Notes under the pieces: generated by a model
What the model saw: the letters and a program-made list of their open reading frames with translations, nothing else
Told to the model about the DNA's origin: nothing
Databases searched by the model: none
Position numbers and translations under genes: made by a program
IMG/VR virus record: IMGVR_UViG_3300046457_000209
Span: 1-21,103 of that record
DNA: 21,103 bases
Strand: one strand, 5' to 3'
From: a virus
Part shown: positions 6,439-10,141 of the stretch, one piece after another
Position numbering within the stretch: the stretch's first letter is position 1
Layout: every line of letters begins with the position of its first letter

Positions 6439-6637
6439 CGAAATCGATCGCGCCAACGACCAGGCGCAATACCTGCTCGATGTTGCGCTTCAGCGCCGTA
6501 GACCCGCGCCATCAAGCCGCGTAAGCGCTCAATATTGCGCGGATTGCGACGATCCCATCCCGTTGCTTCGACAGCAGACGATTGCCGGTTGCCAAACCTG
6601 CGTCGACTGTCAGGGGTTGCGGGAGGCTCAGCGATGA
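6431..6637 (+). CDS. Small TraR/DksA-type zinc-finger protein
   Basis: The 68-residue product starts MADEIDRANDQAQYLLDVAL, a typical TraR/DksA N-terminal helix, and carries a four-cysteine finger: C36-x2-C39, seventeen residues, C57-x2-C60, with an additional Cys54. Family knowledge: TraR and short DksA-like phage proteins bind RNA polymerase in its secondary channel and alter transcription without ppGpp. It overlaps the cII stop by 8 bases and the primase start by ATGA (6634-6637), so all three are probably translated together. It may retune host or phage promoters in the early phase. Confidence 0.86.
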   Translation: MADEIDRANDQAQYLLDVALQRRRPAPSSRVSAQYCADCDDPIPLLRQQTIAGCQTCVDCQGLREAQR

Positions 6638-9330
6638 CTGAACCGGCAAAAGGAATAGCCATCGCCACATGGGCAAAACGTTACATCACTAATTTCGATC
6701 TCGCCCTGGTCTCAATTGAACCCGGTGAAAAAGCCCCAAAGGGACTGGGGTGGAACAAACCCGGCGGTTACATCACTGATGCCGCCACCGCTGAAGCATT
6801 CTGGCACCGAAACCCTAATCACAACCTCGGCGTCGTACTCGGGCCGAGCCGTGTCTGTTCGCTGGACGTCGACGACGTTCAGTGGACGCGGCACGTGTTG
6901 TATGAGCTGCTGGGTGTCGATCTGGATGCCATGGCGTTGGTGTATCCGACTATTGTTGGTAACCCTGCGCGCTTCCGGGTCGTGTTCAAAGTGCCGGAAG
7001 GTATTGAGCTGACCCGGCACTCTCTTTCCTGGCCGAATGAAAAAGACCCTGACGGTTCGATTCACAAAGGCCTGATGGATAAAGCCAAGGCTGCGAAAGA
7101 GCAGGGCGATGAGGTCGGGGAGGCTGCGGCGCGCGCGGAGGCTGAAGAGTACAAGCGCTTCACGGTGTTCGAGCTTCGCGCTGGCCTGGTACAGGACGTG
7201 TTTCCGCCTTCGATTCATCCGGGTACCGGCAAGCCTTACGCCTGGAGAACCCCACCGAACGCCAACGACGGCCTGCCGACGCTGACTGTCGATCTGCTGA
7301 ATATCTGGCAAGGCTGGGAATTTTTCAAGCGTGATGCCGAGGCAGCCTGCCCATGGGCCATCAAGCCAGCCACGGCGCCGGCGAAAGTCATTAAGCGTTC
7401 AGCACCTGCGGTGGGTAAGCAGCCATCGGTGATCGACGAGTTCAACCGCTGCCACGACATCGAAGAACTGCTGCGTACTCACGGCTATATCAAGCGGGGT
7501 AGCAAGTGGCTTTACCCGCAGAGCAGCACCGGCCTACCAGGGGTGACTATCGCAGACGGTAAGGTCTATTCGCACCACGGTGCCGATCCGCTCGCGAATG
7601 GGCATCAGAACGACGCCTTCGAGGTGTTCTGTTTGCTCGAGCACGGCGGCGATCAGTCAAAAGCGGTGAAGGACGCTGCGCGTATGTTGGGTATGCAGCG
7701 TTCATCGCGGCCTGATCCGCAGGATCTTCCCCCGACCCCATCCGGTGAAGTGAGCGAGCCGAGCTGCGCGAACGACGCCATCGGCGAGGCTGCACCGGCT
7801 CCTGACGGGGGGGCGGGGGAGGCACTCACGCTAGACCATTTACTTCGTCGTTTTGCGCTGGTCGAGGGCACCACGCAAGTGTGGGACTGCGACCAGTCGC
7901 GGGTGATGAAGAAGGCCGCATTTGAAGCGCGCGTGGGCAAGCCCCTCGCCAAGGCGTGGCTGGACGACATGGCCAAACGGTTGATTGCGGATGATCACGT
8001 CCGCGACATCGAGCAAGCGCGACGTATGGCGGGTAAGAAGGGCGGCGCGCTCGGTATGCCGCCGACTGATCGGTATGTGTACATCGATGGCACCAAGGAT
8101 GTCTGGGATCGGGAAAAGAAGCGGCGTATTGCCGAAGGCGCCGTGAAGATGGCGCTGGGTGACACTTATCCGCTGTGGCTCAACAGCAGTGAGCGGCGAA
8201 CCGTGGATGTCGAACACATCGTGTTTGATCCGACCATGAGCAAGGACCCTGCGGTGTACATCAATACCTTTGATGGCCTGCCGCTGGAACCTGTCAGGGA
8301 TGATGAAGCCTGCGCCAATCTGCGTTGGCTGATTTCGTTTTTGTGCAACCACGATGAAGCAGCGGCCCAATGGCTCGTCCGCTGGTTGGCGTACCCGTTG
8401 CAGCACCTGGGCGCCAAGATGGACACCGCGGTACTAATGCACTCGATCATGGAAGGCTCAGGCAAAAGCCTGCTGTTCGCCGATGCACTGGGCATGCTGT
8501 ATGGACAGTACGCGGCCACGGTCGGCCAGACGCAGTTGGAGAGCAACTTCAACGCCTGGCAAAGCCGCAAGTTGTGGTCGGTGTTTGAAGAGGTTGTGAG
8601 CCGTGACCAGCGGTACAACCAAGTGGGCAAGATCAAGCACCTGATCACCGGCAAAACGGTGCGAATGGAATCGAAGTTCATCAACGGTTGGGAGGAAGCC
8701 AACCATATGAACGCGGTATTCCTGAGTAACGAAATTTTGCCGTGGCCAATCAGTGACAGTGACCGGCGGATGCTGGTGATGTGGCCAATGGAAACCTTGC
8801 CGGTCGAACGGCAAAAGGCGATCGGACGAGAGCTAGAGCAGGGTGGAGTCGCGGCGCTGTACGGCTGGCTGTTGTCGGTCGACCTGGGCGATTTCAACCA
8901 GCGGACACGACCACCGTCGACGGATGCCCGTGAGCGTCTGGTGGCCTTGAGTCGCGCCGGATGGCAGACGTTCTTGCATCTGTGGAAGTACAGCGAGTTG
9001 GGCCAGGGGCTTTGGGGGCCGTGTCTGTCGACCGACCTCTATTCGCTGTTCCTCGAATGGTGTCAGCGCAATAAAGAGCACGTGATGAGTCAGACGAAGT
9101 TCTCGCTGTTCATCAGTTCCGAGGTCGATAAGACGCGGGCGATTCCCTGGACCGATGGCAGCAACCGGCGTTTTGGCGCGTTCTTCTTTCCCGTCGATCA
9201 GGCCGCTGCCCCGCCCCCATCACTGAAGGCGGCCGAGCTGGGCAAGCAGGTCGAAAACTGGCGCGCTAAGGCGAAGCTTGCGGGCTGGCATGTAGACAGC
9301 TGGGACCACATCAAGGCGGCTGCCGCATGA
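6634..9330 (+). CDS. Bifunctional prim-pol / SF3-like replicative helicase (DUF5906-type)
   Basis: The 898-residue protein should prime and unwind phage DNA. The N-terminal prim-pol part has SLDVDD (76-81, acidic residues 78 and 80) and PPSIHPGTGKPYAW (191-204), matching primase-polymerase motifs. A linker at about 355-398 is rich in Pro, Gly and Ala. The C-terminal part is helicase-like: Walker A EGSGKS (607-612), acidic FEE (651-653), motif C-like FLSNE (696-700) and an arginine-finger region DSDRRMLVM (708-716). The start ATG 6634 has GGGAGG 7 bases upstream and overlaps the zinc-finger stop; the frame is open upstream, but that region encodes the zinc finger. A repeat block follows directly, as expected for a replication initiator beside its origin. 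Confidence 0.92.
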   Translation: MTEPAKGIAIATWAKRYITNFDLALVSIEPGEKAPKGLGWNKPGGYITDAATAEAFWHRNPNHNLGVVLGPSRVCSLDVDDVQWTRHVLYELLGVDLDAMALVYPTIVGNPARFRVVFKVPEGIELTRHSLSWPNEKDPDGSIHKGLMDKAKAAKEQGDEVGEAAARAEAEEYKRFTVFELRAGLVQDVFPPSIHPGTGKPYAWRTPPNANDGLPTLTVDLLNIWQGWEFFKRDAEAACPWAIKPATAPAKVIKRSAPAVGKQPSVIDEFNRCHDIEELLRTHGYIKRGSKWLYPQSSTGLPGVTIADGKVYSHHGADPLANGHQNDAFEVFCLLEHGGDQSKAVKDAARMLGMQRSSRPDPQDLPPTPSGEVSEPSCANDAIGEAAPAPDGGAGEALTLDHLLRRFALVEGTTQVWDCDQSRVMKKAAFEARVGKPLAKAWLDDMAKRLIADDHVRDIEQARRMAGKKGGALGMPPTDRYVYIDGTKDVWDREKKRRIAEGAVKMALGDTYPLWLNSSERRTVDVEHIVFDPTMSKDPAVYINTFDGLPLEPVRDDEACANLRWLISFLCNHDEAAAQWLVRWLAYPLQHLGAKMDTAVLMHSIMEGSGKSLLFADALGMLYGQYAATVGQTQLESNFNAWQSRKLWSVFEEVVSRDQRYNQVGKIKHLITGKTVRMESKFINGWEEANHMNAVFLSNEILPWPISDSDRRMLVMWPMETLPVERQKAIGRELEQGGVAALYGWLLSVDLGDFNQRTRPPSTDARERLVALSRAGWQTFLHLWKYSELGQGLWGPCLSTDLYSLFLEWCQRNKEHVMSQTKFSLFISSEVDKTRAIPWTDGSNRRFGAFFFPVDQAAAPPPSLKAAELGKQVENWRAKAKLAGWHVDSWDHIKAAAA

Positions 9331-9662
9331 CTACATCTAAAAGTGTGTTGGGTGTGTCGGGTGTGTGTTGGGTTGATGTGAGATACCCCACACAGACTGA
9401 AGCCTTCTTTTCCGGCGGTTTGCGGGCTTTGTGTCGGGTGTGTTGGGTTCCGCTACGCGTGCGCGCAGGCGTGACGTTAGATGTTCGGTTTCCGATGGCT
9501 GAGTATTTTTTTCATGCGAGGACGGAAATACCCAACAAACCCAACACACTAAACACAACACGATTAGGGCTATTGATTTTAAAGGGTTTTGTTTGTGTTG
9601 GGTTTGTGTCGGGTTGGGTGTTTTTCGTGTCGGGTTCGGTTTTCGGGGGAGTAGGGCGATGA
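9327..9662 (+). CDS. Doubtful ORF spanning the GTGTYGGGT repeats
   Basis: The 111-residue frame begins in an ATGA overlap with the primase stop (9327-9330) and ends in an ATGA overlap with the next start (9659-9662), which looks like an operon gene. Against this, its sequence is dominated by repeat-derived Val, Gly, Cys, Trp and Phe (VLGVSGVCWV, CVGFVSGWVFFVSG), with no recognisable fold. It may be a real, poorly conserved protein evolving over a repeat block, or an accidental frame. Confidence 0.33.
   Translation: MTTSKSVLGVSGVCWVDVRYPTQTEAFFSGGLRALCRVCWVPLRVRAGVTLDVRFPMAEYFFHARTEIPNKPNTLNTTRLGLLILKGFVCVGFVSGWVFFVSGSVFGGVGR
9345..9635 (+). repeat. Iteron-like array of GTGTYGGGT; candidate replication origin
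   Basis: The 9-mer GTGT(T/C)GGGT occurs forward at 9345, 9354, 9365, 9431, 9440, 9595, 9606 and 9627, and in reverse at 9539 plus one-mismatch copy 9530. Several copies abut exactly (9345/9354, 9431/9440, 9530/9539). A 14-bp perfect inverted repeat (9535-9548 with 9594-9607) flanks an AT-rich segment at about 9561-9594. The place, directly after the primase-helicase, fits an origin with initiator-binding iterons and an unwinding element. No clear DnaA box was seen. Confidence 0.6.
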
Positions 9663-10141
9663 TCCAGGCAATGGAAGTACTGCTGAAGCACTGGGGCGAG
9701 CAACTTCGGCTGAATGGCGAAAGCGGCGGCATGGGCAGTCCGATGGCAACGATCATGGAGTGGGGTGGCTGCGCACCACGCGGCACGCCTGGATCCCGAG
9801 TCATCCTTGGCGCCGGAGCGGGGCCTGATGCAGTTGCGCAGGAGATCGCCGCCGCCCTGTCGGAGATCGGGCGTCAGGGTGAGCAGGGTGATCGGCTGAT
9901 GCGGTTGGCGAGCCTGCGTTACGGCGATGATCCGGCGCCGACCTGGCTGATGCAGTTGCATCTGCTGGGGATGGAGTCGAGAGCGAAACAGACTTATTAC
10001 GACCAGGTGCACCGTCTGCATAAGTGGCTGCTGGAAGTGCTGGCCGAGCGTGCTGACGCCCGTAAGTGGCTTACCGCCGGTCGGGGCGTTTTGCCTCAAA
10101 GTCTCCTCAAAGTTGCGTCAAAGTTGCATCGAGTCGGATAA
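9659..10141 (+). CDS. Probable Q-type late gene regulator / antiterminator
   Basis: The 160-residue protein begins MIQAMEVLLKHWGEQLRLNG and has a MATIMEWGGCAPRGTPGSR segment (about 29-47). A helical middle holds LASLRYGDDPAPTWLMQLHL, and a helix-turn-helix-like end QTYYDQVHRLHKWLLEVLAE (about 111-130) follows. I cannot place it firmly in a named family. The assignment rests mostly on position: last gene of the early operon, followed by a dyad, a terminator and then the lysis and head genes, the layout of lambda Q, pR' and tR'. A small sigma-region-4-like or DUF1133-type protein is an alternative description with the same expected role. ATG 9659 has GGGGGAGTAGGG upstream; the longer frame from 9593 would start inside the repeats. 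Confidence 0.78.
   Translation: MIQAMEVLLKHWGEQLRLNGESGGMGSPMATIMEWGGCAPRGTPGSRVILGAGAGPDAVAQEIAAALSEIGRQGEQGDRLMRLASLRYGDDPAPTWLMQLHLLGMESRAKQTYYDQVHRLHKWLLEVLAERADARKWLTAGRGVLPQSLLKVASKLHRVG

Follow-up and report, generated by a model that had tools for sequence, protein, structure and literature searches.

We propose that positions 9345-9635 of the viral DNA studied here are a replication origin that lies directly 3' of the gene for its own initiator and inside an open reading frame read by ribosomes. We place the probability of this reading, which draws on sequence comparison, at about 80%. The DNA, referred to below as the window, makes up an entire IMG/VR virus record (21,103 bases), and its source is a temperate, prophage-type phage of Pseudomonas.

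The iteron array

The array occupies the interval between a gene encoding a Prim-Pol/DUF5906 protein (6631-9330) and a gene assigned to PHROG 4300 (9659-10141). The 9-mer GTGTYGGGT is present in nine exact copies, all within 9345-9635, eight of them on the plus strand (starting at 9345, 9354, 9365, 9431, 9440, 9595, 9606, and 9627) and one on the minus strand (9539-9547). Copies with one mismatch are found at 9385 (-), 9530 (-), 9553 (-), and 9611 (+). With its diverged copies included, the whole array has about 12 sites in about 290 bp. There are no exact copies in the rest of the 21.1-kb contig, and in 5000 dinucleotide-preserving shuffles of 9331-9660 the mean count was 0.04 and the maximum 2, compared with the nine observed.

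The initial annotation had counted ten copies of the repeat; the repeats are real, with an exact count of nine and the remainder being near copies. Its description of abutting copies in both orientations holds, the pairs at 9345/9354 and 9431/9440 being exactly contiguous, as does that of a 14-bp inverted repeat around an AT-rich stretch. The inverted repeat (9535-9548 / 9594-9607) is perfect and encloses 45 nt, and the spacer at 9557-9594, with iterons on both flanks, is 68% A+T. The features of the region are as follows, with the evidence for each in parentheses.

6631-9330, +, Prim-Pol/DUF5906 primase-helicase, 899 aa, proposed initiator (Pfam and PHROG)
7825-9327, +, C-terminal half of the primase-helicase (residues 399-899), SF3-type AAA+ helicase and winged helix (AlphaFold2, Foldseek, double dissociation)
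9091-9117, +, candidate recognition helix Q821-S829 of the C-terminal winged helix (AlphaFold2 model helix 423-431, followed by a beta wing)
9327-9662, +, bridging ORF of 111 codons that spans the array (stop deficit in its own frame only; no codon-position signal)
9345-9353, +, iteron A1, GTGTTGGGT (exact copy; relatives)
9354-9362, +, iteron A2, GTGTCGGGT, contiguous with A1 (exact copy; relatives)
9365-9373, +, iteron A3, GTGTTGGGT (exact copy; relatives)
9385-9393, -, iteron A4, GTGTGGGGT, one mismatch in the window, exact in many relatives (relatives)
9431-9439, +, iteron B1, GTGTCGGGT (exact copy; relatives)
9440-9448, +, iteron B2, GTGTTGGGT, contiguous with B1, exact in 99% of 85 same-layout arrays (exact copy; relatives)
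9455-9472, no strand, alternating purine-pyrimidine GC tract, common to most word classes (comparison)
9506-9521, +, T-tract followed by a CATGCGAGG element, common to most word classes (comparison)
9530-9538, -, iteron C1, TTGTTGGGT, one mismatch (array alignment)
9539-9547, -, iteron C2, GTGTTGGGT, exact in 96% of same-layout arrays (exact copy; relatives)
9548-9556, -, degenerate iteron C3, GTGTTTAGT, exact in some relatives (relatives)
9557-9594, no strand, 38-bp AT-rich spacer between the inverted C and D blocks, candidate unwinding element (A+T content, spacing)
9595-9603, +, iteron D1, GTGTTGGGT (exact copy; relatives)
9606-9614, +, iteron D2, GTGTCGGGT, 11 bp from D1 (exact copy; relatives)
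9627-9635, +, iteron D3, GTGTCGGGT, 21 bp from D2 (exact copy; relatives)
9659-10141, +, downstream gene, PHROG 4300 (1.5e-41), start overlapping the stop of the bridging ORF (PHROG match; ATGA at 9659-9662)

An Rfam search of 9200-9800 returned only sub-threshold chance matches. DnaA boxes were found in just three of 272 array regions, and the GC skew over the contig has no turning point at the array.

The upstream protein matches the Pfam families Prim-Pol (5.5e-17, residues 16-215) and DUF5906 (4.2e-18, residues 605-713), and the PHROG 1156 DNA primase family at 2e-128. Residues 399-899 were modeled with AlphaFold2 at a pLDDT of 86. In a Foldseek search with this model the best match was the ring helicase of the NrS-1 CTR (1.7e-20), and SaPI5 PriRep was matched at 4e-9. 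The model ends in a helix-helix-beta-wing unit in which Q821-S829 is the candidate recognition helix. The C-terminal domain in isolation had no significant fold match in the PDB, with Orc1/Cdc6 and RFX winged-helix proteins among the weak hits.

Conservation of the layout

Nine Pseudomonas phages have DNA that matches the array region, and in nine related phage records GTGTYGGGT is almost confined to the array position. Six of the seven annotated phages that we compared carry 9-12 exact copies in the same place; the seventh, KT1, has none. Each of the 80 nearest IMG/VR relatives (81-100% identity) has the array, and its distance from the primase stop codon hardly varies among them. Iteron columns are 95% conserved, compared with 79% for the spacers, so that the repeats persist as their surroundings change, which had been suggested as a check on the origin proposal. 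Among 178 nonredundant arrays, the modal spacings are 9/11 in block A, 9 in block B, 9 in block C, 56 from C to D, and 11/21 in block D.

In more distant relatives the layout runs, in order, through three plus-strand sites, one minus-strand site, a head-to-tail pair, an alternating GC tract, a T-tract/GCGAG element, an inverted block, a 38-bp AT-rich spacer, a pair 11 bp apart, and one more site. The distance from C2 to D1 is 56-57 across word classes, and the AT-rich spacer between the inverted C and D blocks is 38-39 bp in most of them; the orientation of block D is reversed in some distant classes. The A+T content of the spacer is mostly 69-87% in the other representatives of the family defined by the C-terminal half. 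In most word classes the alternating CGCG tract and the T-tract/GCGAG-like element persist in the interval from block B to block C though the spelling of the iterons changes. These two elements are possibly a melting-prone site or a site for a host factor.

The layout is not a property of every Prim-Pol primase. An evenly drawn Gammaproteobacterial sample collected by PHROG 1156, in which mostly distant primases were matched, gave 22 readable 3' regions, of which two carry the complete layout and a few show a compact form with four sites. The 12-site layout is therefore a feature of the C-half family. An array is missing behind the primase gene of L309, a distant relative at 37% identity.

The spelling of the iterons follows the C-terminal half of the primase-helicase

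The same layout occurs with other words in place of GTGTYGGGT. KT1 has GGTTAGGGT-type repeats, and further lineages have GTCTAGGGT, TACTAGGGT, GCTAGGGTT, GTGCAGGGT, TTCCGACA, TCAGACAG, or GGGAAGGGT. The Moraxella phage Mcat9 has the word TGTGAAGGG and the Stenotrophomonas phage S1 the word ATGTGCGGG, again in the layout of the window.

As judged from comparison of these loci, changes in spelling accompany changes in the C-terminal SF3-helicase/winged-helix half of the protein. They do not track the N-terminal half or the downstream gene. In 13 loci the N-terminal half has no detectable similarity to that of the window and the helicase half is 72-85% identical; all of them have GTGTYGGGT. Conversely, the KT1 primase is 82% identical to that of the window in the N-terminal half and 59% in the helicase half, and has another word. 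The same is true of L194 and L196-L200, with identities of 62-67% and 41-42%, respectively. The downstream gene of L193 is 89% identical to that of the window, yet its helicase half is only 37% identical and its word is TTCCGACA; L195, with a downstream gene 74% identical and a distant helicase half, likewise has TTCCGACA. This double dissociation, together with L193 and L195, indicates that the C-terminal half and the array form one cassette that is exchangeable among otherwise similar neighbors. Such behavior fits an initiator and its own sites, since priming signals for the N-terminal Prim-Pol domain or sites for the product of a neighboring gene would behave otherwise. The suggestion in the initial annotation that the array is an initiator-type origin beside its replication gene thus gains support from both the conservation and the spelling, which appears to track the C-terminal half. 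It had also been proposed that relatives with the same protein and no repeats would count against an origin. KT1 does lack GTGTYGGGT, yet it keeps the layout of the array with a different word, and the C-terminal half of its protein has diverged.

These observations bear on three other functions that the repeats could have. Priming at TTTGGTTA or GTG is described for NrS-1 polymerase and pRN1 ORF904 (PMC8718748). As GTGTYGGGT begins with GTG and the KT1 array contains TTTGGTTA, the repeats could be signals at which the Prim-Pol domain primes on single strands, in the manner of NrS-1 polymerase, and not duplex sites bound by the C-terminal domain. We consider this unlikely, because the 13 loci without a detectably similar Prim-Pol half share the same word, a similar Prim-Pol half joined to a different helicase half goes with a different word, and many words, among them TACTAGGGT and TTCCGACA, have no GTG. 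The array could also consist of operator or other regulatory sites for a CII-like or CI-like regulator, given that regulator genes are located in the same early region and that arrays of sites can be operators. This is highly improbable: a scan of 9250-9720 found no promoter-like or terminator-like sites, the spelling goes with the C-terminal half of the primase, and the AT-rich spacer and inverted blocks have a fixed geometry. The terminase genes about 2 kb downstream could point to a packaging (pac/cos) site, or the array could be a parS-like partition site. We give this hardly any credence, as the spelling in L193 dissociates from the downstream side, and as the site abuts the primase gene in every lineage that has an array and is spelled according to the initiator.

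Within the GTGTYGGGT family, some changes in the candidate recognition helix accompany changes in the iterons. In about 185 loci an A at iteron base 5 is absent or very rare. The candidate helix contains FAEF in four loci, whose iterons are of the form GTG(C/T)AGGGT; in six others, where residue 829 is E or T, several sites are GTGTAAGGT. Residue 829 is among the five columns that best separate the GTGTAAGGT loci, and residues 825, 826, and 850 are among those separating the FAEF loci. Changes at residues 825, 826, and 829 thus go with changes at iteron bases 5-6 in ten loci, in which other columns separate the groups as well. These loci represent about one branch for GTGCAGGGT and up to three for GTGTAAGGT. 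With so few independent branches, the link between helix residues 825/826/829 and iteron bases 5-6 is suggestive only.

An open reading frame across the proposed origin

A bridging ORF runs the length of the array. Its ATG overlaps the primase stop codon as ATGA (9327-9330), and its TGA overlaps the ATG of the downstream gene, again as ATGA (9659-9662). In 174 of 192 loci the ORF stop nearly coincides with the start of the downstream gene, at -2 to +5 nt from it. An A stands before the primase TGA in 193 of 195 loci. The final sense codon of the primase is GCA in 189 loci, compared with a GCA share of about 11% among the alanine codons elsewhere in the gene.

The frame is kept free of stops. 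In 26 diverse loci there are two stops in the ORF frame and 114 in each of the other two frames. In a test on 76 ungapped, unique aligned loci, which are related sequences, the ORF frame has one stop, compared with a mean of 44 (minimum 36) after shuffling of columns. Frames 1 and 2, which served as internal controls, have no deficit, with 515 stops observed and 498 expected in one and 326 observed and 317 expected in the other. Short indels shift the iterons between phases, and the ORF is open for each of the three phases of B2 (136 of 140, 24 of 26, and 14 of 15 loci). Words that contain TAA or TAG never stand in the stop phase within the ORF and do so 25 times in the other phases; the sole stop-phase case, at +300 in L119, is beyond the end of the ORF of that locus. 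Sites in the stop phase have GTGCAGGGT or GTGTTGGGT instead of the words with TAA or TAG. An open frame recurs in some other word classes (L167, L168, L177, L201, and L203); it is absent from most loci with TTCCGACA, from the TACTAGGGT class, and from KT1.

A frame that is open in nearly all relatives and ATGA-joined to both neighbors could simply be a repetitive protein-coding gene, with the repeats as part of it. The amino acid sequence shows no sign of constraint, however. Variation in the spacers is 0.18/0.21/0.19 by codon position, with none of the third-position excess seen at the 3' end of the primase gene (0.06/0.05/0.26). The ORF is open in every one of the three phases that the iterons occupy, it matches no PHROG family, and several word classes keep the array without it. 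We therefore regard a coding gene as very unlikely. The stop deficit in one frame, with equal variation at the three codon positions, indicates that the frame and not a protein is under selection. The view in the initial annotation that the structure is not explained by coding is right to the extent that no conserved protein accounts for the repeats, and has to be qualified by the selectively open ORF that spans them.

ATGA overlaps are described as coupling translation (PMC6728339, PMC10666635). A termination-reinitiation coupled ORF would have ATGA or near-ATGA junctions at both ends and selection against stops, and both were found here. Our best reading is that ribosomes appear to translate through the origin by termination-reinitiation, which would couple the next gene or avoid polarity. 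It is somewhat probable that this is an origin that must be translated, its ORF being without function at the amino acid level, ATGA-joined on both sides, and kept open through the iterons. If so, ribosome traffic or freedom from Rho-dependent polarity would be built into the origin, and the iteron spellings would be restricted at stop-phase sites, from which GTGTAAGGT and GTGTAGGGT are excluded.

A model for initiation

The array is best supported as an initiator-bound iteron origin of the SaPI-Rep/PriRep type, situated behind the initiator gene. In our model, the C-terminal winged helix of the Prim-Pol/SF3 primase-helicase would bind the 9-bp iterons. Its subunits would then form helicase rings on the A/B and C/D blocks, and the 38-bp AT-rich spacer between the inverted C and D blocks would melt. 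By homology, the helicase would unwind the DNA and the N-terminal Prim-Pol domain would prime synthesis. Translation through the origin would keep the transcript and its ribosomes coupled into the downstream genes.

Relationship to known replicons

The closest known systems are SaPI Rep, SaPI5 PriRep, and SCCmec Cch2, in which iterons located immediately 3' of the helicase gene are bound by a C-terminal domain of its product (Ubeda et al., as reported in PMC7581432). The window resembles SaPI Rep and PriRep in its SF3-like AAA+ helicase, with the fold match to PriRep noted above, and in having iterons directly 3' of the initiator gene that flank an AT-rich element. It differs from them in combining the helicase with a Prim-Pol (AEP) domain in one protein and in belonging to tailed temperate phages of Proteobacteria, in having a single 290-bp array of about 12 sites with fixed layout and lineage-specific spelling, and in the location of that array within an open, non-conserved reading frame.

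In pRN1 and phage BIP-1, no iteron origin was found, recognition of a 3' stem-loop was proposed, and the BIP-1 repeats were dismissed as an origin (PMC4234260). Like pRN1 ORF904 and its BIP-1 counterpart, the protein of the window combines Prim-Pol, SF3 helicase, and C-terminal winged helix, with an origin element directly 3' of its gene; unlike in those replicons, iterons are clear in the window and its relatives. The inverted repeat of blocks C and D could form a hairpin around the AT-rich loop, resembling the stem-loop of those replicons (z -3.9 in the window and -4.9 in KT1). This stem is absent from L155 and L157 (z 0.0 and -1.7), in which block D has the orientation of block C. The stem may therefore be a by-product of inverted sites, with the iterons being the shared element. 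Among Prim-Pol/SF3 phage replicons, where a stem-loop was the earlier proposal (PMC4234260), the array would add an origin of the iteron type.

NrS-1 polymerase (PDB 6k9c; PMC7102993, PMC8718748) also joins a Prim-Pol domain to a ring helicase and is the best structural match of the C-terminal half. Unlike the iterons of the window, its recognition sequence occurs twice in the genome and is a template priming site, and an array is not described (PMC7102993, PMC8718748). The alpha protein of satellite phage P4 is a primase-helicase whose DNA-binding domain binds origin repeats (PMC4234260). The primase-helicase of the window similarly adjoins repeats at a proposed origin; it is of the Prim-Pol (AEP) type by Pfam, whereas the P4 alpha primase is of the bacterial (Toprim) type. 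P4 requires a second site, crr, and no second, crr-like array was found in the window or in the nine related phage records. As in the lambda origin, which is inside gene O (PMC6022878), the iterons would lie within a translated region. Gene O encodes a conserved initiator protein, whereas the ORF in the window shows no amino acid conservation.

In the literature we searched, we found no description of the 9-mer iterons or of the array. An ORF with an open frame and free sequence over an origin is likewise undescribed as far as that search extends, and it would link the start of replication with translation. More than 180 initiator-array pairs, with at least a dozen spellings in one layout, are a natural data set on how SF3 initiator helicases read their origins, and they point to residues 825, 826, and 829 and iteron bases 5 and 6 as candidate specificity positions.

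Variant arrays

Several individual arrays have unusual features. In Stenotrophomonas phage S1 (L160:2454-2804), the annotated gene gp2 overlies the ATGTGCGGG array directly 3' of the primase gene; gp2 is either a spurious gene or another case of a translated origin. In L119 (6699-6762), block A is expanded to seven copies of GTGCAGGGT, six of them exactly 9 bp apart, and this is a recent tandem expansion. In L278, L280, L281, L277, L285, and L287, the A4, B, and C sites are GTGTAAGGT and the A and D sites largely GTGTTGGGT; avoidance of stops in the bridging ORF accounts for only part of this mixture. Four distant Gammaproteobacterial primase genes (L299, L294, L295, and L300) are followed on the 3' side by compact arrays of about four sites, with 9-mers 9 bp apart and inverted copies about 75-100 bp away, for example TGTGACGCT at 4+, 13+, 88-, and 97-. 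The compact four-site array is a possible minimal form of the same origin.
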